Part shown: piece by piece, positions 3,001 through 60,812 of the stretch
Layout of the letters: each line of letters starts with the position of its first letter
Numbering within the stretch: the first letter of the stretch is position 1
DNA from: Pycnococcus provasolii
Lineage: Eukaryota > Chlorophyta > Pseudoscourfieldiophyceae > Pseudoscourfieldiales > Pycnococcaceae
Reading direction: 5' to 3'
Assembly (NCBI GenBank): GCA_938743325.2
Contig: OW568898.1
Coordinates: 62,189-126,188 of the forward strand
Length of the DNA: 64,000 nucleotides
Notes under the pieces: model-generated
The model's input: only the letters and a program-made list of their open reading frames with translations
The model's database searches: none
What the model was told of the DNA's origin: nothing
Translations under genes and position numbers: made by a program

Positions 3001-3261
3001 GAGCTGACTGATATGAAGCTTCCCGTTCACTTCCTGGACATGGGACTCCATTTCAACGGTGAGACGGAGTTTGTTGCGGCTAACGGCGTGCGCGACGACT
3101 TTGTGCGAAGCCGCGAGCACGGATTCGCGATGGGTGGCTGGATGTATCCGGAGACGCGTTCCGACTGCTCAACCGGTCGCGCGCAGATCATCTACAACCT
3201 GCGGAACCGCCGCGCACCTTTCCCATCGCCACCGCCGCCACCGCCGCCATCGCCGCCCGGT

Positions 3262-3294
<33 letters not shown>

Positions 3295-4926
3295 ACGACG
3301 ACGACGACAACAACGACGACGGCGGCGCTTACGGGCGTTGGCCGTAGAGATTTGCTGCAAAGCAATGACAGTGTCGGCAACCGCCTTCGCCTCACAGCTG
3401 GCTTTGAGCTTTTGCACACCTGCGACAATGGCCTCGTATACGTTGAGATGTTCACGGACGGAACCTTGAACGTTCACGAGATCCCGAGCACTGTCAAGGT
3501 CGATTACGAGAAGTGGTACCACGTGTTCGTTACGGTTGATCCGACGAACGCCACCACGAAGGAGATGAAGGGAACCGTGTACGTGAACGGCAATGCTGTG
3601 CACGAATTTGCCGCGGAGATGGCACCCACGGATCTCAGCGACGAAGTCGACTTCAATATTTTCGGTGCATCGCTCATCGCGCCGCCGCCGGTTAGCACAA
3701 CCACGACAACCACGACGCAGGTAAACGTTGGCCGCAGAACTTTGCTGAACACCACCGACAACAAGGGAGATCTCCTGGACACCTCCATCACTACAAGCAC
3801 ATTCAAGGGATACGGCGACAACTTCCTTGTCTTTGCGAGAACGCTTAGCGCTGAGGAGGTGCGCGCTCTGGTGGGCAACACCGTCTACAGGGAATCGATT
3901 AAGCCGTGTGCGTCGCAGACGCAGGTATTGGCGATGGACTGCCTTATCGCGGCGTACCTGTTCGACGACAAAACCGGACATATTGCGCTTGATTCGAGCG
4001 AGCACCGATGCTCGCAGCACCCCTTAGTGGCCGCTCCCCCGCCCACCGAAATACCCGACAGCGCGGGAAAGCGTCGCAGTCACACGAGGGATGGACGCAC
4101 AATGCAAATCACGAACAACAACGACGGAGCTCTCGTGGTTTCCACCACCCCGGTGATTCCTGGCACCTACACGGTCGGGGAGGACCCAAATCTCTCGCCG
4201 CCTCCGCCGCCTCCACCGACCCCGCCGCCGAGCCCGCCTCCGCCGAGCCCGCCTCCGAACCCGCCGCGCGGCGCGGCGATCCTCTCAGTGCAGTCGAGCA
4301 TGCAGGTTGGAGGCTACACGAAGGACACGTTCGGTGAGGTGGAGAAGGCATCCTTCCGCCGTGGCGTGGCATATCATATGAGGCACGCGACCCCTCCGAT
4401 CACTGCTGACGCGGTCCTCATCACTCGCATCGAGAACTCGATCCCAGTGCGTGCCCTCACGCAGCGTCGCCGCAGTCTTCTGGTCGAGGCACGCAGCGTC
4501 GATATCGACTATGTGGTGGAGCTGACCAATGAGACGCAGACGACCGTCGTCCTAGAGTCGCTTTCGGAGTCGAATGCGCCAAGCATTAAATACATTCTCG
4601 AATCTTCGGGACTCACGGATATTACGGGCATCACTGTTTCGAAGAATCCGGTGACAAATGCCCCCCCGCCGCCGCCTGCGACGGGTACGACGACGGCGCC
4701 TACACTCGTCGCATCGCCGCCGCCACCTTACGTGGCGGTTGTGAAGTCTGAGATGCAATTCAGCGGTTACACGAAGACGACGTTCGAGACGAGCAAGGCG
4801 TTGTTTAAGCAAGGTCTAGTTCTTCACCTGGGTGCACTTGGCGTTTCCGCGACGGCAGACACGATCATCATCACGAACATTACGGATGTTGTGCCGAGCC
4901 CGCCGCCGCCGCCGCCGCCGCCGAAC

Positions 4927-4958
<32 letters not shown>

Positions 4959-7900
4959 TCCACCGCCACCTCCGCCGCCGCCGCCGCCGCCGCCGCCACC
5001 GCCGCCGCCGAACCCGCCGCCGCCGAACCCGCCGCCGCCGCCGCCGCCGCCGCCGAAGCCGCCGCCGTCTCCACCTCCGCCGCCGCCGCCCGATCCGAGC
5101 CCGCCGCCGCCTCCGCCGCCGACTACGACTACGACTACGACTACAACAGCGTCGGGTGGTGGGCGCCGTAGTTTGCTGCAAACCAACACAACGTACGAGT
5201 CTTACACGCTTCGGATCGCATTGCGCGTCGAGGCTGCCACCGCGGTTCAGGCGACAGCGGCGATTTACGCCCTGCGCCCGAGCCAGCTCGTAGCTCTGAA
5301 TGACCGTCTCATGTCAGCTGGCTTCACGAACGCCACTGGTCTGACATTCACGATGGAGTCGTACCCGGAGGGTGTTTCGACTGGAGCGACGCCGCCGGCG
5401 TCGGCGATGCCGCCCCCGGCATCGTCGTCGGTGCCGGTACCGCCGCCTCCGACGGAGACGCCGCCGCCGTCATTCTACGGATACACGATGTACCCCCCTC
5501 CTCGAGCGGGAAGGATGCTGCTGGCGGATATGCCCGAGATGGAGCGCCGCGAGCTTGCTCTTTCTTCTCTCCCAATGTACTACACGAATGCTGGAAATGC
5601 TTCCACCGCAATCCGGGTGCTTGAAGGCTACCTGGTGTCATCGGGACCCAACACGGATCGCTGGACGTACTTGAGCGTTCCGTACTACGCGCCGGATCTA
5701 TCACCCGCGCCGCGTCAGAAAACGTGCGCCATCACGGAGACGTCTCGCAAGCGCTTTTTTACGCCTAACAAGGTTGAGATGTTTGGCACGGAGACGCCCA
5801 GCACGGTTTTGGTGACGTACCCGATGAAGTGCATGGAATATCTGCCCGCGTCCGTTGCGGGCGTCGTGCCCACAACGGGCTTGGATAACACGACGGTGGT
5901 TGGCTGGCACTTCGCTCCGAGCGACATGCTGCTTACCACCCAGGCTGGCGAGTCATTCGCCGGCATGACGTTCGTCACGCTGGACGAGCTCGTGATCAAC
6001 TCCGCGTACTCACACCCTCGCGAGACGACGCTCGAGGTGAACAACCTCGCTGGCTACCACGAGGCTGTGACCTCGCCACTTCCCTTCGTGTACAAGGAGA
6101 TGGCAATGCACTTCGACGGAGTGAACGATGTCGTGCAAGCTGCCGACGTGAGCCTTAAGGCTTCCTCGGTAGCTCGCGAAAACGGCTTGAAAATGAGTGC
6201 TTGGTTCTATCCCCTGAGCGACAGAACGTGCGATCTGCAGCCTATCATGTGCTTCACTGACGCATGCACGAGTACCGAACAGCCTGCGCTGCAGCTTTGC
6301 GTGCTGTACCAGGAGGGCAAGGTGCACTTGGCATCTGATGCGGAGTCCATCTACCAGATTCTGTCGTACAACAGCTCAACGCTCATAGTCCCCGCGTCAG
6401 TTGACATGTGGCACTATGCCGAGGTTGTCATGCATACTCAGCCGCAGGTGCCTGGCGAGCCGGCTCTTCCTGATAGCCAGAAGACGTTGCACCTTACGCT
6501 CATGGTTGATGGTGTGGTGGCCGACGGGGCGCCTTTGGAGGTTCGCACCTCCGGAATGCCCAAGGCTGATGGCGAGTTTTTCATCGGAGGCGTTACTTGC
6601 AATGAGAAGTCAACGCCGGTGACGACGACGACGACGACGACGACCACCACCACCACCACAACGACAACGACGTCCACAACGACGACCACCACAACGACTC
6701 GATTCGGCGTTGGCCGACGTGAACTTGTGGATGCTCTTGAGAGCTGCTACGCAGGGCAGGAGAAACCGCCGGGCTTTGATGTCACCTCCGCTACGAAAGA
6801 CTTCACGGGCATGTTCTTCAAAGGAATGATCGATAACGTGGTGGTTGCGGCATCGGAGACGATGTCGCCGCTGCCGTCCATCTTCAAGGATCCGCCCGCA
6901 ACGCAAGATGGCGCGATTGCACTTTTCAAGTTCCAGCCTCGTACGTCAGGCGAACAGTGGGATTACGAGTACATGCCCAAGCTCACATCGATCCCCAACG
7001 AGTGGGACAGTGGTTACATGGCGCATTCGCTCGAATCGTCCGTGGCTGGAGCGGGCAAGTACCGCACCGATCTTGCTGACTTGGCGTTCCCGAACATGGT
7101 GTTCACGAGCGCACCATGGATGCCTTCGACGACGTACTCCGCGGCCGCCACGCTCGACGGCAGCAACTCGATGAAGCTGGGTGGAATGGACGAGGTGACG
7201 CTCAAGGGCTTCAACTTCGCGAAGAGCGCCTTCTCTAGGTGCGTGTTCCACACCTTCAACTCCACGAATACCATGGGATCGACGTATGCTACCGCGACGT
7301 TCGTTTCCGACACGGAGGCGAAGTGCATGGCAGCTGCCTCGGAAATTCCTGGCATTGGGCATGTGATGCACGTCAACCCCACTGCCATTCCCTCGGGCAA
7401 GCAGCAGCTCGTGTACGAGGAGTCGTCGCTCGTGCTTGGCGGCGATGTGTCGATGAACCACTACACCGTGTGCGGCTCCGTCGACGAGAGCAGCGACCTC
7501 GTGCTGAGCTGCGACGACGGCTACCATCTCCACCAGGTGCTTTTCGCCGATTACGGTAAGCCTCAAAGGTGCCCTTCGTCCTTGAACTGCGACGGTACGA
7601 AGCAGCCATGCGATTGTGCGTCGTTTGACAAGGCGACGAGCAAGGACAAGAACTGCAACAGCGACATGGCGAAGCCGTTCGAGTTCACCACCGACGTGGT
7701 GGAAAAGATGTGCCTTGGCAAGCAGAGCTGCACAATCCCCGCGAGCGACTCCGTGTTTGGCAGCCCCTGTGGCGGAAAGAAGTGGCTCACGGTTAGCATG
7801 AGGTGCTCCGACCGTCACCTTCACAAGGACTTCGCCGGCGCGTCGGACGTGCTCAGCAACATGGGCAGCGGCGCAGCGTACACGTTCGGCGCGTGGGTGC

Positions 7901-10900
7901 ACCCGATGGGAAAGCCGGGACTGCAGAGCGTCCTCAGCTTCGACACGTACGATCCCGTTCTGAATCGCCAGAACCTTGGAGCGATTCACTTCGTGGGAAG
8001 CGGAAGCGGCTCGGAGGGCGTTTTCCAGTACTACGACGACTGCGTGAAGGACGTGAAGATGCTGCTTCCGGACAGCACAGATCGCTTCGTGGCGACGAAC
8101 ACGTGGTACCACGTGTTTGCAACCATCGCTTCGAGCGGGGAGGGAACGCTGTACTTGAATGGCCACGTGTCCGCGACATTTGCCACCGCGTGCCGCCCTG
8201 ACGTCAAGGGAACGGGAACGTTCACCATCGGCATGGCAGTCGACTCGAACGGCCACCCGTCTACGTTTTTCAAGGGTGCCGTGGATAACGTTCGTGTGTA
8301 CAGCCGTGCTCTCAGCGCGGAGGAAGTGCAGTCAACGCTTGTCGGAAATTCTGCCGAGCCGACGGACGGGCTCGTCTCTTTCTTCACGTTCAACAAGGCG
8401 ACCGGATCGGCTCTCGTGGACTCCGCACCTGGCAGTCAGGTGGCTGGAGCGCTCGCCACGGAGGGTGTCATGCATGTGGAGAACCTTGTGGCCGACGCGA
8501 GCTTGCCCGTGTCCACCGTTTTGCCCACCTACGAGTACGTTGGTGTGCCGTGGCTTCCCGCGTCTATCACGGGTATTTCCGATGGCTCTGGCAGCTCGTC
8601 CATGGTGCACAACTCGGGCGCCGGGGCCATGCGTGGAGATGCGACGGTGACTGTGAAGGGTGTGAACTTCAGCCCGGCTTCGTCGCAGGTGTACTTTGCC
8701 GAGGCGGGCAAGGATCCCGTGGGCGTGCCCACGATGTACGTGTCTCGCAACGAGCTCGTCGCGTACACGCCATCCGCAATCGGCGAGCGAACCATCACGG
8801 TGAAGAATGGTGACAACCTTGGATTTGACGAGTCGAACTACGAGCAGAGCGTTTCCGTCGAGGATCTTGCCACCGGACTGTGCGCGCACTTCACGTTCCA
8901 CGACGGCATGGCAACCGACGTCACCGGCAAGACAACGCCAGGTGTCGTGATCGGAGCCAAGCCGTCGAAGGGGCGCGACGAGCGCGTCGTGATGGAGGCG
9001 CTGTCGTTCAACTCGAGCAGCCACAGCGTTGACGTGAAGGGCATTTTGACTGCCTGCGACATGAACACTGCGGGGTACACGATTGCAACGTGGGCGAAGT
9101 TTGACTACCCGAGCTACCCTAATGGAATCACTACGTCGTCGTGCCCGAACACGCAGAGCATCACGTCGTCGTGCGCCAAGCCGGGCATGATGTACGGTGC
9201 ATTCAAGCACGTCGTGCTTTCCGTCCCCTCGTCGGCGGATCTGTCAAGCAAGCTGTACGTGAATGGCGAGGAGGTTCCTATCGAGAATGCCCCGGCGTAC
9301 AACACGTTCCTGTCGACGGTGGCGCTTACGGGCATCATCGGCGGCTCCGGCTACGCGGGCATTGTGGACGACCTGAAGGTGTACACGCGCCCGCTTTCGT
9401 CGCCCGAGGCGATGGAGCTGTACCGAACGCGAGAGACGGCTGCCGAATTCCTCGTGGGCAGCAGCGTGGCGATGCCGCGCAACGACGCCGTGCCCACGGG
9501 CGAGCCTGGCCTTCGTGCGACGGTGACGTACGCCATGAGCGGCGAGACGCTCGGCACGGCTGACCTCGGCGTTGTTGCGCCGACGTTTTTCCCGTTCACG
9601 CTGCCCACGACTGAGGTGGTGGCGGCCAGCGGCCCGTTTGCGATTGCAACCGAGTACTCGCTTACCGTCACGGGATACGTGCATGCGAGCGTGGCGGGTG
9701 CGCACACGTTCACGATGGTGTCTGACGAGACCGCGAAGCTGCTCGTTAACGGTACCCAGGTGGCAGCGTCTTCGTCGGCGGCTGGCGCGAAGCAGGCGAC
9801 CGCTTCCGTGAACTTTGAAGCTGGCAAGTGGTACAAGATCGAGCTTCAGTACACGAAGCTTAACTTGGCCGCAGCCCCGTACGTGCATTTGCTTCACCAG
9901 GCTCCGGGCTCTTATCCAGCCCCGCTGGATTCCGCCTCCTTGCGTGCAGGCTACGGCTCTTTCACAGTGTCGACGTGGATTCACCCGTACAGCACGGCTG
10001 GCAAGCAGCCGCTCGTCAGCCAGGCGCGCACGGCGACGGCGACGGCATTCCAGGTTGGAATTGAGGACGGCGGCCTGTTCCTGGAGATGTACGCCGAAAA
10101 CATCGACGGCGGCTACGTGACGTTCACGAGCCCCGCGGCACTCTCGTCCGTTCCCGCGAATGCCTGGACTCACGTCGCGGTGTCGTACGATGGAAAGGGT
10201 GCGCGCTTCTTCGTCGACGGCATTCTCACGGATTACAACGAATTAGCTGAAACGACCTCCGCATCCATGAGCGATCATCCCATCGTCCTTGGCAGCGGAA
10301 AAACGTGCGACGGCGACGTTCTGTCGTACACGGGGCAGATGAAGTCGTTCTCGCTGTACTCCACCGCCCTCGTTCTCGAGGAGGACATCAAGGAAACGAT
10401 GACGTGCTACCACAAGGGTACGAAGGCGTTTGCAAGCAGCCTCGAGCTTGAGGCTGACTTTGTCGACGGCGTTGGACTGCGCGTGCTCGAGGTGTCTGGC
10501 AGCGACTCGCCGATGTTCGCGGACGGTCTGATGACCGCCGTGGCCCGCAACACGAAGGACATGCGAGTTAACGCGACGTGCGACACGTACGACGCCGTCG
10601 CATCGTCGACGCTTCTGAGCGGCACGGCGCTCGTCGAGTCCGTCGCCGGCGACTGCTACTCGTTTTCGATGGAGCTGTACGACAAGTGCGGCGCGAAGAA
10701 GCGATTCGGCGGAGACAATGTCACCGCCCACGTCATTGGTCCGCTGCACCTTCACAAGGAGCTGCAGCGCCTGCACGTTGGCTCCGGCGTCCAGGACATG
10801 GGTGATGGGTCGTACATGGCGACGACCACGCTGACGCTGAGCGGGTACTACGTCGTGCGCGTCTACGTGAATGGCGAGTTTGCCGCCGAGAGCGAGACGG

Positions 10901-13900
10901 GCTACGTGCACCCGGCGGAAACGTCGATGGCTCACTCTTTCGTGTACGACGTCGAAGATGCCGTCCTCTACAACGAGGTGGTTGAGGCGCCGGCTGGCGT
11001 TCCCGTTTCTATGAAGATTCAGACGGTGGACCGATTCGGCAATCTGCGCACCACCGGCTGCGACGACGGGTGGGTGATGAAAGCGACTGGGCCGTCGAAC
11101 TTCGACGGAAGCGTCTCGGACAACGGCGACGGCACGTACACGGTTTCGTACCGCGCCGACATTGCTGGCCCTTACAAGTACACGATCACCCGCGATGGAG
11201 AGAACATCTGCCAGTGGGGTGGGTACACGTGCGCCGCGGGAACGCAGAGCGGCACGAAGGCGTGCACGCTTGGCTATGCCGCGGGCGAGGACTGCGCCTT
11301 CTGCCTCACCGTGTTCGAGGGAACGTCTCTCAACACCACCTCGGGCCTTTATGCGACGGTTCCAGATGCGAGTGAAATCGCGCTCGACGGCTCATTTGCA
11401 GCCACCGCCTGGGTGCACAAGACGGCGGGAGATGCGACGAACGTTCGCCAGTACGTCTTCAGCAAGCAGAGTCCGTCGTCTGGCAAAGGTGTCTGGCTTG
11501 CTATGGAGGCGACGGAGGATGCCGGCACGTACGTGATTGAGGCGGCGGTGTACACGGGCGCGAAGAAGGGATGGCGTCACGCGCGTGCTACCGTTGCAAT
11601 TGCTCTCGACGCCTGGTCACTCGTGGGCATGTCGTACAGCGGCACGGAGCTCAGCATTCTGGCGAGTCCCTCGGGAGGAGCGCTCGAAATTGTGGAGTCG
11701 ACGAAGTACGACAGCGAGGAATTCGGACGCCGCAACTCCCAGCCGCTGCGCGTCGGCGCTGGGCTTATGGGACGTGTCGACGACTTCCGTCTGTACGACG
11801 GCATTCCGTCCGAGGTGACGTCGCTGGAGTCCAATGCCTTCTGCCCTGCCAAGGTACCAAGCTTGGTGCTCCACCTCAGGCTCAACGAGGGCAACGGCTA
11901 CGCGACGAAGGATGCCGTTGGCGACAACGACGCGGTGATCGGACTCGTGTACGGCTCCGCCACCGAGGGTGGCAAGGTTAAGCTGACTTGCCCCGCCGGG
12001 CACGTTATCACAGATGTGCTGTTCGCGTCGTTCGGCGTCACGGATGGTGCCGGTGGCGCATATGTCGTGGACGGCTGCTCTTCGGGCAACAGCATGGAGG
12101 TTGTGACGGCAAGCTGCATGGGCAAGGCTACGTGCGAGCTGAAGGCTTCGAAGGCGACGTTTGGAAAGGATCCGTGCCCCGGCACGGGCAAGAGCCTTAC
12201 CATCTCTGCAGCCTGCGGAGGCGGAATGTCCGCGTGGGGAGAAACGCCGCAGGCGGCGCCGACGCTGGTGGGCGTCCTGGACGTCACGAAGTCGATCGAG
12301 CCCACGTGCACAGGCCTGCCCCCCTACATGCAAGCGATGCTCGACGACGGATCGTGCTCGACGGCGTTCGAGCCCGAGGTGAACCATGAGGTGTCCTTCG
12401 GCGTTCTTCGCGTCGATGGCTGCGGATTCCCGGACCTCACGGCGCGAGATTCGTTCGTGTCATCGGTTGTTTACCCCGAGGAGATGGTGGCAACTGCGGA
12501 CGACGCCAACACTTGCCTGCCGCGCAGCGTGCTCGCCGAAGCCGATGCCGTGCAGGTTACGTGGGGAGGAGACTCTGCCGAGTACTGCGGCGTGTTCAAC
12601 AATGCGTTCGTGTTCACGTACGCACCACACAAGGTTGGCACCGACGCGAAGGTTCACATCGAGCTCGGCGGTGCCACGGTGATGGAGAAGGCGCTTAACG
12701 TGAAGCCTCTGTCCGCAAGCCCGAAGTCCACGTCGGCGTGCGCCACCTCCGCGGAGTCTGGCGTCATGACGGTGATCTCCGTGGAGCTGATTGACACGCA
12801 TGGCAATGCGATCGACGTGCCCACGGCTAAGGACAGCGCGTCGATTGACATCAAGGCGTTCGGCAACACGGGAAGCTTCGTCGTTCCCACGCTGCTCAGC
12901 ACGTCTGGAGGAGTGTTCACGTATGGCATGACGTACCCGACGGATGGCGACTACACTCTGACGGTGAGTGTGGCTGGTGAGTTTGCGGAGGGATGCGGCA
13001 ATGCCATGGTGCAGGTGTCCGCCCCCGAGATGCACTCGCTGCTGCACGCCAGCAGCGTGGATGCGGAAGAGCCGCGCAGCCGCCACGTGTCCGTGGAGTA
13101 CGACGGCGACTTCTACCTGTTCGGAGGAGTGACGGACAGCGAGTACCTGAGTAGCACCATCAAGTACAGCACCGGCGTTGTTGAGGCTGTTTCCGAGGCG
13201 TACGCGTACGCCACCCCCGTGGTGGTGGCTGGTGCCGAGATCAGCGCAATGACTGCGGTGGAGGTTGTCGTGGACACCGCGAGCCTGATTGCGAGCGGCA
13301 AGATGCGTCCCGACTGCGCGGACATGGCATTTGTCGACGACGGCGCGGTGATGCCCTTCTGGATCGACCCGCTGCCGGGCTGCGGAAGTTCGAACACGAC
13401 CGCGTGGGTGGGCGTGTCCAAGGCTGGCACATATCACATGGTGCACGGCAGTGCGACGGCGACGTCCCTGCAGGCGGACCCATCGAGCTTCATGACGTTC
13501 TACGACAGCTTCGAGAGAGACGGCGTGTTCCAGGACGGAAGCTTGTGGAAGCTCCTCGATAGCGAGTGCAGGCCCACAACCTTCACGGCTGCGGCGGGCG
13601 CATTCACGACGTCGGGCGTTGTGTCGACAAGCGGCACGAAGAGCCTGATGGCTGACACGTTTACCGCCGACGGCGGTAGTCTCGTGGCGAAGGTTGGCCT
13701 GGGAACCTCGTACGTGCTCAGGGCGCATCTCTTCGATTCAGGATGCGACGGTGCCCACTGGATCTCTCCCACGGTGAACGCGTGTTCCGCGCTCACGATG
13801 GACAAGGCTGCCTTGGACCGTCAGATCGGATGCGGTATCTACACAGGCTCGATGAAGGATGTGTACACGAAGATGTACCCGTGGTTGGGAACGAGCGTGA

Positions 13901-14997
13901 AGCGCTCGTCGGGATGGCACTCGGTTGAGTTTAGCAGCGACGGAACGACCGTCGTGACTCGCATTGATGGCGTGGAGGTGGACGCGAGAGGCGTGGAGGG
14001 GTCGCTTGACGAGATTTTCTTGCATTCAGGATTGTTCACTGGAAACGAGGAGGCTCCCGGATACTGGGACGCGATTTACGCCGTCCCTCGCGTCGTGGGA
14101 CTTTCTGTCAATTTGGTTGTGGAGGAGACGAAGCCTGTGCACTACGTCGTGGGTGCTGGATGGAGCGAGGTGGTGACTCCAACGAGTCCGCCCGCACGCG
14201 CCAGTGCCGCGGGTTGCGAAGTGAACGGCAAGTGGATCGTCTCAGGTGGTGAGAGGAACGGATTTTTCTTCTCGGATGTGTGGCAGCTGGACTTCAAGAA
14301 GGGCAGCTGGAGCCACGCACCCACCTTTGGCGTTGGGCCGTCCGGACGCCACAGCCACGCGATTGCCGAGAAGGATGGCGTGCTGTATCTCTCAGCTGGC
14401 AAGGGTGCTGATGGAGAAGTCCTGAAGGACTTCTGGTCGCTGGATCTGAAGACGATGACGTGGACGGATCACAGCGCCACGGTGCCGAAGAGCATGATGC
14501 CTCGTTTTGGACACCACAGTGCCGTCGTTGGCAATGCGCTCTACGTGTATGGAGGGTTCGTTTCGTTCCTTCCATCGCAGGAGCTTTGGGAGTTCAACTT
14601 TGCGAGCATGCAGTGGCGTCTGATTGCGCCGAATCAGCTCACGGTCAAGTCCGGTCTCGGAGGAGATGCTCCGATGTACGCGGACAAGGACTACGTGCCG
14701 CTCTTCGACAACACGATGGGACGCATCGCGCTTCTCGCGAATGGCTTTGCAAGCGATGCCGATCGCACAGGAGCATACAGCAGTGACGTTGACGTCGTTG
14801 GATCGTCTTGTTCGATGTCGGCCGTTCTCGCGACGAACTCGGAGAGGATCGGGCTTAGGTGTTACGATGACGATGGAAGCGTCGCGACTGCGTATGGCTC
14901 GAAGTTGGCCGTGCTGAAGGGCGCGAAGGGCGACTACGTCGTGTACGTGGTTGCCAGTGAGCCTCTGAAGGGACTTCCTATGTCGACGGCATACTAA
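1..14997 (+). CDS. Giant secreted LamG / SUEL-lectin / PA14 / Kelch mosaic protein (5' partial)
   Basis: The frame is open from base 1 with no start, so the N-terminus lies outside; about 5,000 residues are visible without an intron. Domains by nucleotide: concanavalin-like LamG folds (about 1940-2520, 3040-3880, 6106-6870, 7819-8340, 8878-9435, 9940-10410, 11330-11840), IPT/TIG folds (2764-2950, 7096-7340, 8550-8850), SUEL/Gal-lectin domains (7470-7806, 11970-12220), PA14-like (9520-9910), filamin-like repeats (10560-11190, 12765-13030), a DUF2341-like unit (13200-13500) and Kelch repeats (13076-13180, 14194-14640). Extensin-like polyproline (longest 4897-5130) and polythreonine tracts sit beside RRxLL motifs. 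I infer an extracellular or cell-surface carbohydrate-binding protein. No C-terminal membrane segment is seen; it ends KGLPMSTAY. Family-level calls are from motif reading only. Confidence 0.9.
4285..5370 (+). repeat. Duplicated SEA-like domain with RRxLL loop inside the giant protein
   Basis: Two in-frame copies (about 4285-4650 and 4729-5370) share the pattern V-x-S-x-M-x3-GYT-x2-TF, F-x2-G, and AD-x-(V/I)-(L/I)-IT-x-I, then an RRSLL motif, then alternating hydrophobic strands (DIDYVVEL; LRIALRVE) and a GLT/GIT element. Copy 1 has a short loop ending QRRRSLL. Copy 2 has more than 70 mostly proline/threonine residues in the same loop, ending GGRRSLLQ. The strand-loop-strand layout resembles SEA or ferredoxin-like folds, which is inference. 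Confidence 0.6.
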
Positions 14998-49295: not shown

Positions 49296-52200
49296 ATGCC
49301 TGTCGCACCAATGTCTGCGGTGCGCCCTCGTGCACCTGGTGCTCATGGTGGTGCTCGTGCTCTTGCTCATGGGTCTCGCACAGGCACTCATAGGAGGAGG
49401 CTATGTGCTTCGAATAGTGCAGGGGGTGCGTCTGGTGCAGGCGATTACAGTCGTGGTGCGTCTTCGGCTCATCTCGAATCTGAGTCCCTGGGAGGAGAAG
49501 AAGCGTTGTTGTCTCAGAATTCTGAGAGGGAGACCTCTGCAGCAGCTTCTCAGGGCCAGGGGGCTTCTTCATCGTTGGAGAGCGACGAGAATGTGGGTGC
49601 TGAGAGATCAAATTCCAAGATCAACACAAACGACACCACGGCGGAAAATACGCAGACGACGCTCGAGTCTGAATCAGTTCCGCAGACAAGTCCTCCGCCG
49701 TTCGCGGCGGGAAACACGGGTGCCGTTGTCGGCAACACGCCTTTGCTGGACCTCAGCCGGCTGTCCAAGGCGGAGAACGTCAAAATTCTCGCGAAAATGG
49801 AGTTCCTCAACCCCACGGGATCCATCAAAGACCGCATCGCCCTGCACATGATCTCGCGCGCCGAGTCGGAGGGGAAAATCAAACCAGGCGTCACCACCAT
49901 CGTCGCATCCACGTCAGGAAACACCGGGTGCAGTGTCGCGATGGTGTGCGCCCTGAAAGGATACGACTATATCGTCATCACCTCCAAGAAGTGCTCGGAA
50001 GAAAAAAGGGGAAGCATGAGAGCGTTCGGGGGACAGGTCATCATCGCCGACGACGGACTGGCTGCCGACCACCCGGAGCACTACGTGAACCTCGAAAGCA
50101 CGCTGTGTGAGCAGAACGAAAACTACTTTGGAATCGACCAGTACGAGAACCAGCACAATCCGGAGGCGTACTACACGTCACTCGGACCGGAGATCTGGCA
50201 GCAGACGCGCGGACGTGTCACGCACTTCGTTGCCGGTGGGTCGACCGGAGGCACGGTCACGGGCACGGGCGCCTACCTGAAGCACGTCTCCGACAACCAA
50301 GTGCAGGTGCTCATGCCCGATCCGGTGGGATCCGTCATCTTCGAGCACTGGGCAAAACACGTCCCGGAGAACGAGCTGCAGGCGTCGGGGTACAAGGTGG
50401 AAGGCGTTGGAAAGGACTCCATACCCGGAACGCTCGACCTGTCGTTCGTCGATGCCATGATCTCCGTCACAGACAAGCAGTCGATCCAAATGTGCCAGAC
50501 GCTCTCCTCCACAGCTGGCGCGCTCGTCGGAGGTAGCTCCGGCCTGAACGTGTACGCCGCGGTGGAACTCAGCAAGGAACTGGGCAGGCAGAATCCCTCG
50601 CGGGAGTTCACCATCGTCACCGTGCTGCCGGACAGTGGGCTGAAGTACTTGAGCAAGATCTACAACCAGACGTGGTGCGAGGAGAATGGCTTTATGGACG
50701 ACGAGTGTGACCCACAGGATGAGGTGAACCGCTCAAGATGCCGTGACACCGCCGTGCCTCGTGCAAGCGCCACGGAGGTTGATGACGATCTCGCGGCTGA
50801 GGAAAACAAGTCTCCCCTGTTTTCTCGCGAGGTTGCGAATGCCTTCCTGAAGGATGCCGCGGACATTCTTACCGAGTATGCCGCCGCGGAGGATGTGCAT
50901 GTCGTAGACGATACCAGCGGTGGGAACAGCAATAGCGGCAACGGCAGTGGCGGTGGCGGCGGCGGAAACAGCAACAGCAACAACAGCAATAGCAACAACG
51001 AGCAGGAAGACAACGACGAGACCTCGCCCTTGTTGTCTTCGTCATCGTACAACGCGCCAATCGTGTCAACCACGGCACTGGGCGGAGGAGCAAATCCCGC
51101 ATTCCCTCGCGCAAAACTCGCGGATCCGGCAACGCCAATTCCACCCGTCATCACGCTTGCTAGCCCGGAAGAAATTGACGCGGCGTATCGCGAGCGCGCT
51201 AGCATGAGCCTCAGCTTGCTTGCAAATGGCGGTGGCGGGTCGCACACGACGGATAAGCTCCTCGAGGCACTCAAGGTGACCTTGGACATGTCGGCGAGAA
51301 CGCATCACCCGCTCTTCCTGAATCAGCTGTACTCTGGTGTCGATCCCATCGGCCTCGCGGGCGAGTGGCTGACCGCGGCGACGAATACAAACGTTCACAC
51401 GTACGAGGTGGCTCCCGTCTTCACGCTCATTGAGCGCGAGGTGCTCGCTAAGATGGCATCCATCTGGCTCGCGGACCCTGACGAGGTGACGAGCGTGGCC
51501 AAGCCCACGACAAATCGCAAGTCGAGCTTCCAAAAATTCCTCTCGAGCTCAGAGGCTGCTGACCCTATGCCAACCCCCTCGGCGGAGAACAGCCTCGACG
51601 ATGCCGTGGCTTGCGCACCCCCGCATGACGGGCTGTTTGTTCCTGGTGGATCCATCAGCAACATGTACGGGATGCTGCTGGCGCGACACCGCGCGGACCC
51701 AGAGTACGTGAATCGTGGCGCGTACGGTGCGCCTCGCCTAGTCGCTTTCGTGAGCGACCAGGCTCACTACTCGTTCTCGAAGACTGCAGGCGTTATGGGA
51801 CTTGGGCGTGACAACGTCTGGTCCGTCGAGAGTGATGCGAGCGGCGCAATGATCCCCGACGCGCTCGAGAGGAGCATCGAGAAGGCGGTGGCAGAGGGAG
51901 CAACGCCGTTCTTCGTTGGCGCAACTGCCGCCACGACGGTGATGGGTGCCTTTGATCCATTCGTTTCGATCCGTGAGATTTGCGATCGGCACTCGTTCAC
52001 GCCTGCCGGTGCCTCGGAAGACGAGCGCGTGCCAATCTGGATGCACGTCGACGCGGCGTGGGGAGGCATGTACTTCATGAGCCCGAAACTGCGAAAGCAG
52101 ACGCTGCGCGGCGCTGAGCGTGCGGACAGCCTAACGTGGAACCCGCACAAGATGATGAATATGCCGCTAACGTGCAGCGTGATTCTCACGCGTGAGCCCG

Positions 52201-52823
52201 GCAGCCTTCAGGCGATGAATGCGAGCAATGCCGCGTATCTCTTCCAGCCAGACAAAAACTTTGTCGAGTACGATCTTGGCGACCGCTCGATTCAGTGTGG
52301 GCGCAAGGCGGATGCGTTCAAGCTTTGGCTCGCTTGGAAGGCGAAGGGCGATCTTGGTTGGTGTCTCGAGGTGGAGCACGTCAACGCGCTGGGCGAAGGC
52401 CTCGAGAGGATGATTATGGACCAGCAGGCTACGAGCTCCGTGGCTGGCTGCTCGTTTGAGGGGCGCTTCCTGATGGCGACGCCGCGATCGTGCACGAATG
52501 TTTGCTTCTGGTACATCCCCCCACGCCTCGTTGGTGAGCTCGACATGCACATTGTCACGGTGGACAGCATGGGTGAGCCCGTCAGCCCCGTCAGCCTCGT
52601 GGGTGTGCCTGACGAGCTTCGCAGCGAAATTGACGGCGTCGCGCCGAAGATTAAGGATCGCATGCAGCGCATGGCTGGCGATGGCAGCGCGCTGATTGGA
52701 TTCCAGCGCAACAAGGGTCTTCCAAACTTCTTCCGTCTCGTCTTGCCTGGTGGCAAGGGATTGAGCGACGAGGTTCTCCTGCGCATGCTCAAGCGCATGG
52801 ACGAGCTTGGAAAGGATCTCTAA
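49296..52823 (+). CDS. Fused cysteine-synthase-like / PLP decarboxylase (CSAD-like), possible taurine enzyme
   Basis: 1,175 residues from the ATG at 49296, intronless. Residues about 140-470 are a fold-type II PLP domain of the CBS/cysteine synthase family: GNTPLLDLSRL, PTGSIKDR with PLP-lysine K178, TSGNTG (206-211) and GGSTGGT (314-320). It lacks heme-binding and CBS regulatory regions. An acidic Asn/Ser/Gly linker follows (about 490-600). Residues about 640-1170 are a group II decarboxylase: DGLFVPGGSISNMYG, DQAHYSFSK, MHVDAAWGG (D919), WNPHKMM (K952), RSIQCGRKADAFKLWLAWK and LPNFFRLVL. These resemble cysteine-sulfinate/glutamate decarboxylases. I infer serine-type substrate to cysteate-like product to taurine, with channelling. 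The N-terminus may be a targeting region. Confidence 0.92.
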   Translation: MPVAPMSAVRPRAPGAHGGARALAHGSRTGTHRRRLCASNSAGGASGAGDYSRGASSAHLESESLGGEEALLSQNSERETSAAASQGQGASSSLESDENVGAERSNSKINTNDTTAENTQTTLESESVPQTSPPPFAAGNTGAVVGNTPLLDLSRLSKAENVKILAKMEFLNPTGSIKDRIALHMISRAESEGKIKPGVTTIVASTSGNTGCSVAMVCALKGYDYIVITSKKCSEEKRGSMRAFGGQVIIADDGLAADHPEHYVNLESTLCEQNENYFGIDQYENQHNPEAYYTSLGPEIWQQTRGRVTHFVAGGSTGGTVTGTGAYLKHVSDNQVQVLMPDPVGSVIFEHWAKHVPENELQASGYKVEGVGKDSIPGTLDLSFVDAMISVTDKQSIQMCQTLSSTAGALVGGSSGLNVYAAVELSKELGRQNPSREFTIVTVLPDSGLKYLSKIYNQTWCEENGFMDDECDPQDEVNRSRCRDTAVPRASATEVDDDLAAEENKSPLFSREVANAFLKDAADILTEYAAAEDVHVVDDTSGGNSNSGNGSGGGGGGNSNSNNSNSNNEQEDNDETSPLLSSSSYNAPIVSTTALGGGANPAFPRAKLADPATPIPPVITLASPEEIDAAYRERASMSLSLLANGGGGSHTTDKLLEALKVTLDMSARTHHPLFLNQLYSGVDPIGLAGEWLTAATNTNVHTYEVAPVFTLIEREVLAKMASIWLADPDEVTSVAKPTTNRKSSFQKFLSSSEAADPMPTPSAENSLDDAVACAPPHDGLFVPGGSISNMYGMLLARHRADPEYVNRGAYGAPRLVAFVSDQAHYSFSKTAGVMGLGRDNVWSVESDASGAMIPDALERSIEKAVAEGATPFFVGATAATTVMGAFDPFVSIREICDRHSFTPAGASEDERVPIWMHVDAAWGGMYFMSPKLRKQTLRGAERADSLTWNPHKMMNMPLTCSVILTREPGSLQAMNASNAAYLFQPDKNFVEYDLGDRSIQCGRKADAFKLWLAWKAKGDLGWCLEVEHVNALGEGLERMIMDQQATSSVAGCSFEGRFLMATPRSCTNVCFWYIPPRLVGELDMHIVTVDSMGEPVSPVSLVGVPDELRSEIDGVAPKIKDRMQRMAGDGSALIGFQRNKGLPNFFRLVLPGGKGLSDEVLLRMLKRMDELGKDL

Positions 52824-55556: not shown

Positions 55557-58500
55557 ATGTCCGAGTACAGCTACTCGTCAACTCGGTCGTCGCGTTCGGC
55601 GGCGTCATCGTACAGGTCTCGCCATTCCAGTTATTCATTTTCATCGAAGAGGTCTTGGAAGACAGACTTGAGTGGTTTCTCCTCCTTGAGTGGAGGAGGG
55701 TCTTGGCTGAGTGATTGTGTGGTGGCTGCTCATGGCTCCTCAGGGAATTCGAATGATGAACTTCTCGCGTCGTCGTTGTCTGGCTTTTTGGAACACCATA
55801 ATGAGGTGGTTTCATCCATTTCGCATACGCAATCTGAGGACTTGATGACACCTGCGGAGTTCGTTCTCATGAATATACTCTGCGATGAAAAGTCATCCGT
55901 CTTGTGGAGACCCACCTTAAAAAGGAAGTTACGCGAATTTCTTCACCGTGCTCGTGGTGGTGCTCGTCGTCGTGGTGGTTCCAACGACGTCGATGATAAC
56001 CTTATGCAAGACTCCTCGTCCTCTGGTGGTAATACTCTCGTCATGTCGCCTGCGATGAAAGACGCCATCAGACTCGTGGGACGGCTGCTTGACGGACACC
56101 ACGAAACGAACAAAAAATCGAAACGGGCACTTCACACGCAGTCGTCGCCCACAACAATGTCTCCACCACAGCCACAGTCACAGTCACCTCCACCAACACC
56201 TCCACCACCACCACCACCAGCAGACTTTGAGGAGAAGTCGCCAGCCATGAAAGATGCCATTCGTCTTGTGGGCCACCTGCTCTCGCCAGAGCTCACCGCA
56301 GCACCTGCACCACTCCCCACGCTGCCACAGCCGTCGCCACCACCCTCCTCCTCACCACCACCACAACCTTCATCACCACCACCACCGTCTGAGCCGCTGT
56401 CGCCTGCTATGCGAAAAGCCATTAAGCTCGTTGGACATCTGCTCGACACCACCACCATCACCACCAATACAAGCACAGTCACCACTCCAACGCGTACGAC
56501 TTCGCCACCAGCAGCGTCACCACCACCACAACCACTACCACTACCCGCAGCTCCCACAAGTCACAACATGAATCGCGACGCAATCATCGAGCAGCTGATG
56601 CGCTCGTTGGGAGCGCGCAGAGAAACACCTGACGACGACGAAAAGGGCGTATCTTCACGAAAAAAATCTGCAAAATCTCACAGAAAGAAAAGACCCGCAT
56701 CCGCATCCGCATCCGCATCCAAGCCGACGACCGTCACGACGACGATTCCCGAATTCGAAGATGCGACGATTGCCGTGGCGCAGAGAAAGGTGCACAGCGA
56801 AATCGACTTCCTGGCAGCCAAAGGAGTTGACGCGATTGTCGCCGAGAGCAATGGCTGGCCGCTTGGAAGTACGCCGGAGAATCTCAAGGCGCAGTTCTCT
56901 AACTTTGACGCTAAAATCACGAAGCTTGACGATAAAATCAGGAAACTCAACATCGAGACGCTCGAAAAGCACAACGACGACGTCGACAGCATCGACAACT
57001 ACGACGACGAAGACGAAGACGAAGTGGTGACTGCTCCAGATACACCGCGTTCCGTCACGTCGGACGCCACTTCATTCGCCGATGCCTCCACGAACACCGT
57101 CGAACCTGACGTCGCATCGATCGACCAACTGCTCACCACCGACGAGTGCTGCATGGAACTCGTGAAGGGAAATGTGATTCTATGTACCGAAACGGGCTGG
57201 AGGAGCTTCGACTTCATCACGGAGGAGTACGGCGAGTTTCACGAGACTCCTGGCAGCGTGGCGACCGCGAGTAGCAGCAGCACCAGCGTGGCAACTGAGC
57301 AAGTTTCGGAACAAATGATAAACGCCAAACGCCGAAGGTCCACGTCGTCGGCGAATGGAGTTCTCTTCCACACCACGAGCGGCGACATAGAGTTCGCAGC
57401 TACGTTGCCTGATGCGCCGCTGACTTCCGATTCCGAGCCCGGCGTTGAGGAGTCAGTGACCATCGCGGCGACCATCACCAGCCATGAGCATGAGAGCGTG
57501 CCGCAGGGAGGGGAGGTTGGCGACAACACTGCCGACGATGGGGAGGAGGAGGTGCCACCAGAGGAGAAGATTGATGCGAAAGCCGCCAGGCAAGCCGTGC
57601 TAAAAGGCGGTGCATGCCTAAAGTTTTCACGTAAGAGTCCCACCTCTTACCCCACAAAGGTTCGACTCAAGATGAAGCGAAAGGGGCATATCATGTGGCA
57701 TCATGGCGCACGTTGGGCGGCACTGCGATCGCTCTCAGGCTGCTGCGTGCGACGCATACTCGACCAATTCCCGCCGTGGCTTGGCAAGAAAGAACTGGAA
57801 TCGAATCCATGGCTAGTGGAAACACCCTGGAGAAGTCGGAAGGCTGTACTCGAGCATAGCATCGTTGTTGAGGTGGATGACAAGAGCCAAAGCGAGATTG
57901 TCTTCTTCTTCGAAGATTTGCACGACGCGCGAATGTGGCGCGTGGGAATTGCCGCATTGTGTGGCTTGACCAGACCTCGCGTTAGTACAATGGCCGCGAA
58001 AGCACCGCCGGCACCAAAGGTGCCGACACCAGCCCCACCAACGGCACCTCCACCCGCACCCGCACCATCACCCCCACCGCCACCATCATCCACACCGCCA
58101 TCGTCATCGTTGCCGGAGTCGCATGTCGCGGGTCAGTCGCATGTGATAGCCACAAAGAAGCCATCGCAACCAGTTCCTCTGATTTATCGAACGCTCGATT
58201 CGGACGACCTTGTGGCCACGAGCCCAGCGCCGAAGTCAGAAAAGACGCGTGCGTGGCTCATCGAAACGCTCTCACGCTTCTTCGGATTGCAGCAGCTCCC
58301 GTTGAACACGCTTAGCCGATGCGCTGATCAGATGAAGGGCATCGTGGCATGCGCTGGCTGGGACATCATATGCCAGGCGGAGTGCGTTCACAATCTCTAC
58401 ATTCTCCAGAGTGGAACGTGCGATGTTCTCGTAGACGGCGAGGTGATTGGGAAGCTCCCAGACCTCGGCGTGATCTTTGGCGAGCTCGCCATTCTGCAGA

Positions 58501-60812
58501 CGCTCGCTTCCACGGTTACGGTGCGCGTGGCATCGCACGCCGCCATTTGGGCTCTAGACGTCAGCGCTCTATTCCAAGCCGCACACGAGACGCGCGGAGG
58601 CATCGAGATCTACAGACTCATGCGCGAGATCCGCCTCTTCCGCGGCGTGGACCATAGTGTGCTTCGCGCAATCGCGTCGGACGCATCGCTCAAGGCGTAC
58701 CATTCGGCGTCAGAAATCGTTCTCGACAAGGGCATCTGGCTGCTTAAGGCTGGCGGTGTGCTGATCCAGTCGGGCAAGATGGGTCGCAAGAGCACGACGC
58801 ACGGTGACGTGTTCAACGAGCTATCGGGCATCTCGAGCAAGCCAACGTCAGAACGATTCTATGCCGCGCACGACATTCCGCAGACAGTAGTCGTGTACCT
58901 CCCCTTCGACAGCCTTCGGCGCCACCTCGGCTTGGACCTTGACGAACGTCTACTCCACTCTTTCAAGTTGGGTGTGCTGCATCGTGTTCCGATCGTGCGC
59001 GGGTTGGACCCGCGGCTGCTGGAGCGTCTGGCAAGCTGCTTCCGTGAGGAGACTTACGGCGAAGGCGCGGTGATTGCGCAAGCTGGGAAGTCATGGAGCA
59101 ATCTCACGGTGGTTCTTGACGGCACCATCTCGTTTCAGAGGCACGGTGTCGAGGTGAAGCGGCTTGGCTCCATCACGCACTTTGGCGAGGAATTGCTCAC
59201 GCACAAAAGGCGCCTGAAATCCACGCTCGTCGCATCAGCGCGTGGTAGTGAAAATGTCGCGCGCGTCGTGCGCCTGCTTCATTTAAGCAGAGATGACTTC
59301 CAACCCATTCTCGGGCAGCCTGTGCACGAAATTGTGGAACGCAAGAACATCGAGTCAGTTTTGAAGGCGGCGACGTTCCGCGACTTCCCTGGAGTTCACG
59401 TGTTTTCTTTCCCCTGGATTGGCCTTGATCTCCTCGTGCAGTCGCTTTTCGTCGAGGAGGGGTGGATCACGATGCACGATGTGGGCGAGGTGATTGGCAG
59501 TCGCGCAGGCGAAGACGACGCAACCGCGTGCATGCACGTTGTGATCAATGGCACCGTCTCCGTGCGAGAGCAGGGTGGTGGAATTGACTGCACGCTCGAG
59601 CCTTCGTCGTATTTTGGCGAGGATGCGCTGATCGACGACGCGTATGCCACAAGCAGCCGACGCGTGCTCGCGAAGGCTGTGACACCGTGCACGGTGGTGT
59701 CCCTGTCAAGGCGCAGGGTTGAGCTGTACTGCGGCGCGCTGCGTCCGCAGCTAGTGGCTGCTTGGCAGAGGCGTGAGAACTCGGCGCACATTCGCGCTCT
59801 ATCTGACAGTGGCACCCTTAGCGAGAATCTTGTTGGCGGTGGAAGTGTGGAAAGTGGAACGTTTGGCCAGCTTTGGATCCTGCACGACAAGACGACACTG
59901 ACCGCCCTCGTGCGGATGACGCTGTCGAAGCGTCAGATTTATGCCGATGGTAAGCTTGCGGTTGTCAGGGCTGCCGTCGAGCTCGCTCGGATGCAGATTG
60001 ACCACGCATCGTTCGTTTCCATCGTGCACACGTCGTTCAGTGAGCTCGGCATTCAAATATACATGGAGCACGTGCCTGGTGGGGACATGCGAGTACTTCT
60101 TGATTCTCACGGGCCGTTTGACGAGCGCACGTCAGCATTCTTCGCTCTTCAGGTGGCTGGCGCAATGCACTACCTGCATGAGTCGGGCGTCGTGTACCGC
60201 ACGCTGCGCCCATCCTGCATTCTCGTCGACGAGCGTGGGTACATCAAGATTCAGCTCGACTTTCTTCTAGGTGGATGCAAGCTGCTTGCGGATGGAGAGG
60301 TGGCGTACACGTTGTGCGGCCTGTGCGAGTACATGTCCCCTGAGATGGTATCTTTGTCTGGCCACGCTCACAAGACTGACGTTTGGTCGTTTGGCGTGCT
60401 TTGCCACGAGCTCATGACGAACACGACGCCGTTTGCGCCGAGCGCGACGTTTGGCTCGGAGACGTACATTGGCATCCTGTCGAAGGAGGTGGAGTACAAG
60501 TCCAAGGAGATTCCTGGTGATACCGCTCGCGCATTTCTGGCGCACCTGCTTGCGAAGCAGGCTGCGAGTCGCCCCAGATTTTCGGATCTGCGGGTGGACG
60601 CATGGCTCGCATCGCAGTTTACGATTTCTGAGATGCTGAAGATTGAGCGTCGATCGTTTGAGATGAATCTCTCCGGTGTCTCTGGCGTTGCTTTTGGCGT
60701 TCCCGCCGCCGCCCCTGCTGCTGTGGATGATGGCGGTGCGGGCGAGTCGCACGAGGTGACGTACGAGGACGACGGTTCGGACTTTGACAGCTTTTTCCAG
60801 GACTTGTGGTGA
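55557..60812 (+). CDS. PH / four-CNB-domain protein with PKG-like pseudokinase
   Basis: 1,751 residues from the ATG at 55557 (MSEYSYSSTRSS); upstream in-frame sequence is a T-run. The N-terminal 400 residues hold three copies of an SPAM(K/R)-x-AI-x-LVG-x-LL motif (starts at residues 164, 228, 282) between proline-rich linkers. A PH-like domain lies at about 680-805 and four cyclic-nucleotide-binding-like folds at about 900-1410 (FGELAIL and FGEDALI cores, but no clear phosphate-binding Arg). The C-terminal kinase fold resembles the PKA/PKG group but is catalytically degraded. The VAIK-type Lys region reads ALVRM (1450-1454), HRD-type YRDLKPEN reads YRTLRPSC (Asp to Thr1549), and DFG reads DFL (1568-1570). 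YMSPE and DVWSFG remain. I infer a scaffold or regulator. Confidence 0.88.
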   Translation: MSEYSYSSTRSSRSAASSYRSRHSSYSFSSKRSWKTDLSGFSSLSGGGSWLSDCVVAAHGSSGNSNDELLASSLSGFLEHHNEVVSSISHTQSEDLMTPAEFVLMNILCDEKSSVLWRPTLKRKLREFLHRARGGARRRGGSNDVDDNLMQDSSSSGGNTLVMSPAMKDAIRLVGRLLDGHHETNKKSKRALHTQSSPTTMSPPQPQSQSPPPTPPPPPPPADFEEKSPAMKDAIRLVGHLLSPELTAAPAPLPTLPQPSPPPSSSPPPQPSSPPPPSEPLSPAMRKAIKLVGHLLDTTTITTNTSTVTTPTRTTSPPAASPPPQPLPLPAAPTSHNMNRDAIIEQLMRSLGARRETPDDDEKGVSSRKKSAKSHRKKRPASASASASKPTTVTTTIPEFEDATIAVAQRKVHSEIDFLAAKGVDAIVAESNGWPLGSTPENLKAQFSNFDAKITKLDDKIRKLNIETLEKHNDDVDSIDNYDDEDEDEVVTAPDTPRSVTSDATSFADASTNTVEPDVASIDQLLTTDECCMELVKGNVILCTETGWRSFDFITEEYGEFHETPGSVATASSSSTSVATEQVSEQMINAKRRRSTSSANGVLFHTTSGDIEFAATLPDAPLTSDSEPGVEESVTIAATITSHEHESVPQGGEVGDNTADDGEEEVPPEEKIDAKAARQAVLKGGACLKFSRKSPTSYPTKVRLKMKRKGHIMWHHGARWAALRSLSGCCVRRILDQFPPWLGKKELESNPWLVETPWRSRKAVLEHSIVVEVDDKSQSEIVFFFEDLHDARMWRVGIAALCGLTRPRVSTMAAKAPPAPKVPTPAPPTAPPPAPAPSPPPPPSSTPPSSSLPESHVAGQSHVIATKKPSQPVPLIYRTLDSDDLVATSPAPKSEKTRAWLIETLSRFFGLQQLPLNTLSRCADQMKGIVACAGWDIICQAECVHNLYILQSGTCDVLVDGEVIGKLPDLGVIFGELAILQTLASTVTVRVASHAAIWALDVSALFQAAHETRGGIEIYRLMREIRLFRGVDHSVLRAIASDASLKAYHSASEIVLDKGIWLLKAGGVLIQSGKMGRKSTTHGDVFNELSGISSKPTSERFYAAHDIPQTVVVYLPFDSLRRHLGLDLDERLLHSFKLGVLHRVPIVRGLDPRLLERLASCFREETYGEGAVIAQAGKSWSNLTVVLDGTISFQRHGVEVKRLGSITHFGEELLTHKRRLKSTLVASARGSENVARVVRLLHLSRDDFQPILGQPVHEIVERKNIESVLKAATFRDFPGVHVFSFPWIGLDLLVQSLFVEEGWITMHDVGEVIGSRAGEDDATACMHVVINGTVSVREQGGGIDCTLEPSSYFGEDALIDDAYATSSRRVLAKAVTPCTVVSLSRRRVELYCGALRPQLVAAWQRRENSAHIRALSDSGTLSENLVGGGSVESGTFGQLWILHDKTTLTALVRMTLSKRQIYADGKLAVVRAAVELARMQIDHASFVSIVHTSFSELGIQIYMEHVPGGDMRVLLDSHGPFDERTSAFFALQVAGAMHYLHESGVVYRTLRPSCILVDERGYIKIQLDFLLGGCKLLADGEVAYTLCGLCEYMSPEMVSLSGHAHKTDVWSFGVLCHELMTNTTPFAPSATFGSETYIGILSKEVEYKSKEIPGDTARAFLAHLLAKQAASRPRFSDLRVDAWLASQFTISEMLKIERRSFEMNLSGVSGVAFGVPAAAPAAVDDGGAGESHEVTYEDDGSDFDSFFQDLW
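56046..56450 (+). repeat. Thrice-repeated amphipathic motif in the pseudokinase N-terminus
   Basis: SPAMKDAIRLVGRLL (residues 164-178), SPAMKDAIRLVGHLL (228-242) and SPAMRKAIKLVGHLL (282-296) are separated by disordered proline-rich spacers. Each would form one amphipathic helix. A looser relative, NRDAIIEQLMRSLGAR, follows at about nt 56570. Confidence 0.85.

Follow-up and report, generated by a model that had tools for sequence, protein, structure and literature searches.

Gene layout and genomic context

The window, i.e., the entire 64,000-nucleotide stretch of DNA that was analysed, lies in contig C38 of a genome of 32.3 Mb in 46 contigs, and carries at 55557-60812 on its plus strand the single 1751-codon open frame that had originally been predicted there (Table 1). 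Stops are absent from this frame, as against 30–65 in each of the other five frames across the same stretch and about 63 expected by base composition in 1751 random codons. The C-terminal half of the encoded protein has a PKG-like layout, with four cyclic-nucleotide (CNB) domain positions followed by an AGC-type kinase domain, i.e., the union of CNB domains and an AGC kinase domain within a single chain by which a PKG is recognized. Each of the eight CNB-kinase paralogues that were examined likewise has both domains in one open frame, so the family can be read here without splicing. These comparisons are confined to a single genome, and the alignments behind them are at about 20–30% identity.

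Table 1. Features of the open frame at 55557-60812, in window coordinates
Feature	Position	Strand	Basis or remark
Whole ORF, 1751 amino acids plus stop	55557..60812	+	intron-free reading; no in-frame stops
Three copies of the 15-residue helix-like SPAM[KR][DK]AI[RK]LVG[RH]LL	56046..56444	+	between Pro-rich linkers
Individual repeat copies	56046-56090, 56238-56282, 56400-56444	+	
Proposed PH-like region, residues 681-805	57597..57971	+	by-eye resemblance to PLC-type PH at both ends
CNB-A, residues 933-1004	58353..58568	+	FGE kept, phosphate Arg to S985; Pfam, profile
CNB-B remnant, residues 1047-1124 (envelope)	58695..58928	+	FNE, Arg to T1097; marginal, E 0.09
CNB-C, residues 1163-1251	59043..59309	+	FGE kept, Arg to L1220, basic neighbours; profile, Pfam below cut-off
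CNB-D, residues 1319-1391	59511..59729	+	FGE kept, R1368 at phosphate Arg; Pfam, profile
AGC/PKG-type pseudokinase domain, residues 1424-1685	59826..60611	+	Pfam, PDB, genome profile, alignment
M1454 at the VAIK Lys position	59916..59918	+	kinase alignment
YRTLRPSC, catalytic loop	60195..60218	+	HRD Asp to T1549, catalytic-loop Asn to C1554; kinase alignment
IQLDFLLGG	60249..60275	+	DFG Asp D1568 kept, Gly to L1570, two extra residues; kinase alignment
C-terminal DFDSFFQDLW	60780..60809	+	comparison with paralogue tails and PfPKG WDIDF

The ORF is accompanied by tubulin-tyrosine-ligase, cytosolic-carboxypeptidase and myosin-head genes, which mark the DNA as eukaryotic. Elsewhere in the window, the open frame at 49296-52820 (+) appears to be a fusion in which a PALP-type PLP enzyme domain precedes a pyridoxal-dependent decarboxylase domain, and that at 112-14997 (+), open for 4961 codons, matches laminin-G-like, SUEL lectin, filamin, PA14 and Kelch domains and appears to code for a very large protein, either secreted or at the cell surface. 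Single scans of viral and of prokaryote contigs for relatives of residues 901-1692 returned 5 and 14 pattern matches, respectively, none of which was confirmed. Pfam matches of the protein to Relaxase_C and Herpes_BLRF2, both under their cut-offs, were set aside.

A kinase domain with fold motifs kept and key catalytic residues lost

The kinase domain is readily detected by profiles: Pfam Pkinase matches residues 1433-1683 (E 1.5e-31), the best PDB match is human PKG1 (E 1e-36) with PKGs filling the top seven places among the best 60 matches listed, and a profile made from seven CNB-kinases of the genome gives 145 bits. In an alignment with 17 other kinases, including six intact CNB-kinase ORFs and nine further kinases, the predicted loss of the VAIK Lys (M1454), the HRD Asp (T1549) and the DFG Gly (L1570) is borne out, as is the presence of the SPE and DVWSFG segments; Y1547, R1548, D1568 and F1569 are likewise retained, and a two-residue insertion sits after the ‘DF’. 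The alphaC Glu hinges on one gap, with MAFFT placing an Ala there and an ungapped reading by eye a Glu. None of the other reading frames over the stretches of M1454, T1549 and L1570 carries canonical kinase motifs, which speaks against paired frameshift errors and leaves no alternative frame by which the motifs might be restored.

The catalytic Lys, HRD Asp and DFG set of a PKG is therefore not found in this chain (M1454, T1549, L1570), and what is found is the mark of a pseudokinase: a fold still detectable by profile from which the Lys and the HRD Asp have been lost, with the DFG Asp kept. Between them, the layout and the residue losses give good support to the earlier reading of the protein as a pseudokinase of PKG type, and the domain is very probably devoid of catalysis.

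The CNB array and the C-terminal tail

Four CNB-like folds had been proposed ahead of the kinase domain; four positions can indeed be discerned, with A, C and D clear but B marginal. When scanned singly against Pfam, A and D reach 28.8 and 29.7 bits (cut-off 27.5), C remains under the cut-off at 18.8 and B has no match, and an independent CNB profile built from 20 other ORFs, with the present protein left out, recovers A (E 1.9e-9), C (1e-8) and D (1.2e-9), B standing at 0.09. The cassette Glu is kept in all four, and S985, T1097 and L1220 stand in place of the phosphate Arg in A, B and C, respectively. At the same position in D, the alignment puts R1368, a placement that depends on where a 4-residue insertion preceding it is positioned. 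Thus, the description of all four CNBs as degenerate holds for the Arg of A–C but not clearly for D, and the broader claim that both parts of the protein are degenerate, apt for the kinase, is too strong for the CNBs because CNB-D keeps the Glu and, by the profile alignment, the Arg. Loss of this Arg is not rare in the CNBs of this genome: among 64 other CNB matches that have a residue in both columns, some perhaps due to chance as their domain E-values run up to 1, the Glu and Arg occur together in 39.

About 33 residues separate CNB-D from the kinase domain, the spacing between CNB array and kinase in the paralogues L042-L045 being 29–45. At the other end of the kinase, the DFDSF near the chain end can be likened to the tails of the paralogues, seven of eight of which end in Phe (the exception is L043), and to the WDIDF motif with which PfPKG ends according to part of PMC6628679.

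The N-terminal part

The three repeat copies differ pairwise by 8/1, 4/4 and 6/3 synonymous/non-synonymous codon differences, with dN of 0.08–0.21 and dS of 0.77–1.88. In all three pairs dN is lower than dS, a trend, albeit over only 15 codons, that points to selection on the peptide, which may form an amphipathic docking helix. Residues 163-297 are matched at 12 further places of the genome (best E 0.002); for residues 329-679 and 684-834, the rest of the genome offers nothing good (best E 0.023 and 0.038).

The PH-like domain of the original prediction did not fare well. By eye, residues 681-805 look at either end like a PH domain of the phospholipase C type in which the middle is long, but Pfam gives no PH match for the region, a PDB search none up to E 10, and it is not among the 21 PF00169 places and one PF16457 place of the genome. 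It scores -0.3 bits against a profile of nine PH domains of the same genome (7 of 200 shuffles as high, a borderline value) and 1.0 bits against a two-row profile of PLC-type PH (149 of 2000 shuffles as high), and in the best two of ten pairwise PH tests 30 and 31 of 500 shuffles scored as well. With neither profile, Pfam nor PDB significance and no convincing shuffle test, the PH domain is unproven; a PH fold diverged beyond the reach of profiles may nevertheless be present.

Paralogues and kinase trees

Nine CNB-kinase ORFs, the present one included, were found in the genome, a count that leaves out intron-split genes and any missed by the search. K, D and DFG are intact in six (L043-L047, L049) and degenerate in three: besides the present ORF, L042 has Asn for the HRD Asp, DFS for DFG and Arg for the catalytic-loop Lys, and L048 has Ser for the HRD Asp and DLR for DFG. 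The scenario that had been set against the original prediction, of intact relatives with only this copy degraded, can be judged here on paralogues: intact relatives exist in good number, but this is not the sole degraded copy. CNB stretches number four in L044, four in L043 (one weak, with a further one at chance level), five in L045, five in L042 (the last two like one split domain) and two each in L046-L049.

A parallel might be struck with L042, the best paralogue by BLAST (31%), which likewise joins a CNB array to a kinase with degenerate HRD Asp and DFG but, unlike the present protein, keeps the VAIK Lys and catalytic-loop Asn and, in the first and the last of its cassettes, both Glu and Arg. 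The kinase trees, which hold kinases of this genome only, give the protein no stable place and do not fix this relationship: one tree pairs the two at 84/72, whereas without the long branch of L048 the pairing appears in 0% of 200 bootstrap trees. None of the forced pairings with L042 (p 0.255), L044 (0.155), L043 (0.199) or L021 (0.101) is rejected by the AU test, and the highest identity in the trees, 27%, is to the kinase L016.

The genome has a large cyclic-nucleotide repertoire, with no fewer than 113 CNB and 19 class III cyclase matches. L048 (G000:C23:207500-212500) combines a PP2C domain, two CNBs with Glu and Arg each and the degenerate kinase domain in one chain; L050 (G000:C6:36500-45500) joins four CNB stretches to ankyrin repeats and EF hands within a single open frame; and in L062 (G000:C16:513097-513666 plus flanks) a guanylate cyclase domain immediately follows a kinase domain (HQD, DFG), a receptor-cyclase-like layout within a frame of 2980 codons, 1190 of which were read.

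A proposed scaffold and its alternatives

The sequence combines the PKG layout with the loss of residues that position ATP and transfer phosphate and with the retention of the motifs, SPE and DVWSFG, that hold the fold. On balance, the protein may be seen as a PKG-derived pseudokinase that serves, without catalysis, as a scaffold or an allosteric partner, a reading that we favour with some reserve. As CNB-D is alone in having, by the alignment, both pocket residues, and in view of the 33-residue spacing and the DFDSF tail, such a scaffold appears the most likely, possibly switched by CNB-D. The kinase domain would still be folded and offer a surface for docking proteins, partners might also dock via the repeated N-terminal helices, and CNB-A to -C would have a structural role. 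By analogy with the relay of malaria-parasite PKG, cyclic nucleotide might bind CNB-D and alter the docking surface of the kinase; the numerous class III cyclases imply that a source of ligand exists. That CNB-D in fact gates the dead kinase is a tentative suggestion, more doubtful than the scaffold itself, and much the same caution applies to the fuller idea of a non-enzymatic second-messenger receptor, in which the ligand of CNB-D alone would reshape the dead kinase, which would recruit partners together with the three N-terminal helices. Speaking against the scaffold reading are the contingent Arg placement in CNB-D, low codon scores toward the N-terminus, the 4/4 repeat pair and the unstable position in the trees.

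Alternatively, the protein might act in trans or as a decoy, its CNB array, locked by the dead kinase, binding cyclic nucleotide or a PKG/PKA catalytic part so as to inhibit or buffer it. CNB arrays without a kinase match do occur in the genome, in seven scanned ORFs (L050 being read with its start cut off) and in L053, as do the putative PKAs L013 and L018, two short AGC-like kinases with the size of a PKA. However, with three of its four pockets devoid of the Arg, the array would make a poor sink for cyclic nucleotide, and this role is considered unlikely. As originally proposed, the CNBs might instead sense a ligand other than cGMP, e.g., a nucleoside, as suggested by the Glu persisting in every cassette with the Arg gone from three and by the kinetoplastid PKA CNBs, likewise without Arg, that bind nucleosides (PMC10959531, in part). 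The signature of those nucleoside pockets, as given in a portion of the same paper, is a Glu at the position of RIalpha Ala202 together with a polar residue for Arg209; none of the four CNBs has it (A978, S1090, L1213 and A1357 stand at the Ala202 position), which makes this ligand change improbable.

Residual activity, as an unconventional kinase or a nucleotide-binding protein, could be argued from the kept D1568, from the basic R1453 adjoining the lost Lys and from the Gly loop, which has its first Gly changed but keeps two of its three glycines. With the Lys, the catalytic Asp and the catalytic-loop Asn all changed, such activity is decidedly improbable, and no kinase is known to us to function when the VAIK Lys and the catalytic Asp are both missing. 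Least probable of all is a gene in decay or a recent, functionless loss: the kinase branch is long (4.06 and 3.45 in two trees), and both residues 1-400 (-0.05) and the PH-like region (-0.04) have a low synonymous codon score, but the open 1751-codon frame, the gene-like codon usage of the conserved parts (0.18 in the CNB part and 0.14 in the kinase part, as against 0.02–0.22 in eight neighbouring ORFs that were also the training set of the score) and the repeat copies, in which dN is lower than dS, speak against it.

Comparison with known systems

The kinetoplastid PKA regulatory subunits that are regulated by nucleosides, as described in sections of PMC10959531, resemble the present protein in having CNBs without the phosphate Arg; they differ in the Glu at the Ala202 position, absent here, and in that the present protein has its kinase in the same chain. 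A layout of PP2C, CNB and inactive kinase is recorded, in part of PMC3019232, from Phytophthora (PITG_08304, PITG_09375) and plants, and those proteins share CNBs and a PKG-related inactive kinase domain with the one described here. They differ in the PP2C domain, for which the present protein has no Pfam match and which, in the same genome, belongs to the separate gene L048. A partial search of the literature brought up no PKG that combines four CNBs with a dead kinase, so one may still have been published.

In Plasmodium PKG, which is of the apicomplexan type, the domain named pCNB-C is degenerate. Portions of PMC6628679 describe cGMP as binding three of the four CNBs, with pCNB-C the odd one, and propose a relay in which cGMP first binds the CNB adjoining the kinase (CNB-D) and moves a shared helix. 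If it is true that CNB-D gates a dead kinase in the present protein, then cyclic nucleotide would act via a PKG-shaped protein without any phosphorylation, and nature would have provided a test of which parts of the PKG relay serve shape change rather than catalysis. The two proteins have in common four CNB positions followed by an AGC kinase domain and a Phe-containing motif in the C-terminal tail, and the protein described here departs from Plasmodium PKG in its dead kinase, its three Arg-less pockets and its long N-terminal part with repeated helices.
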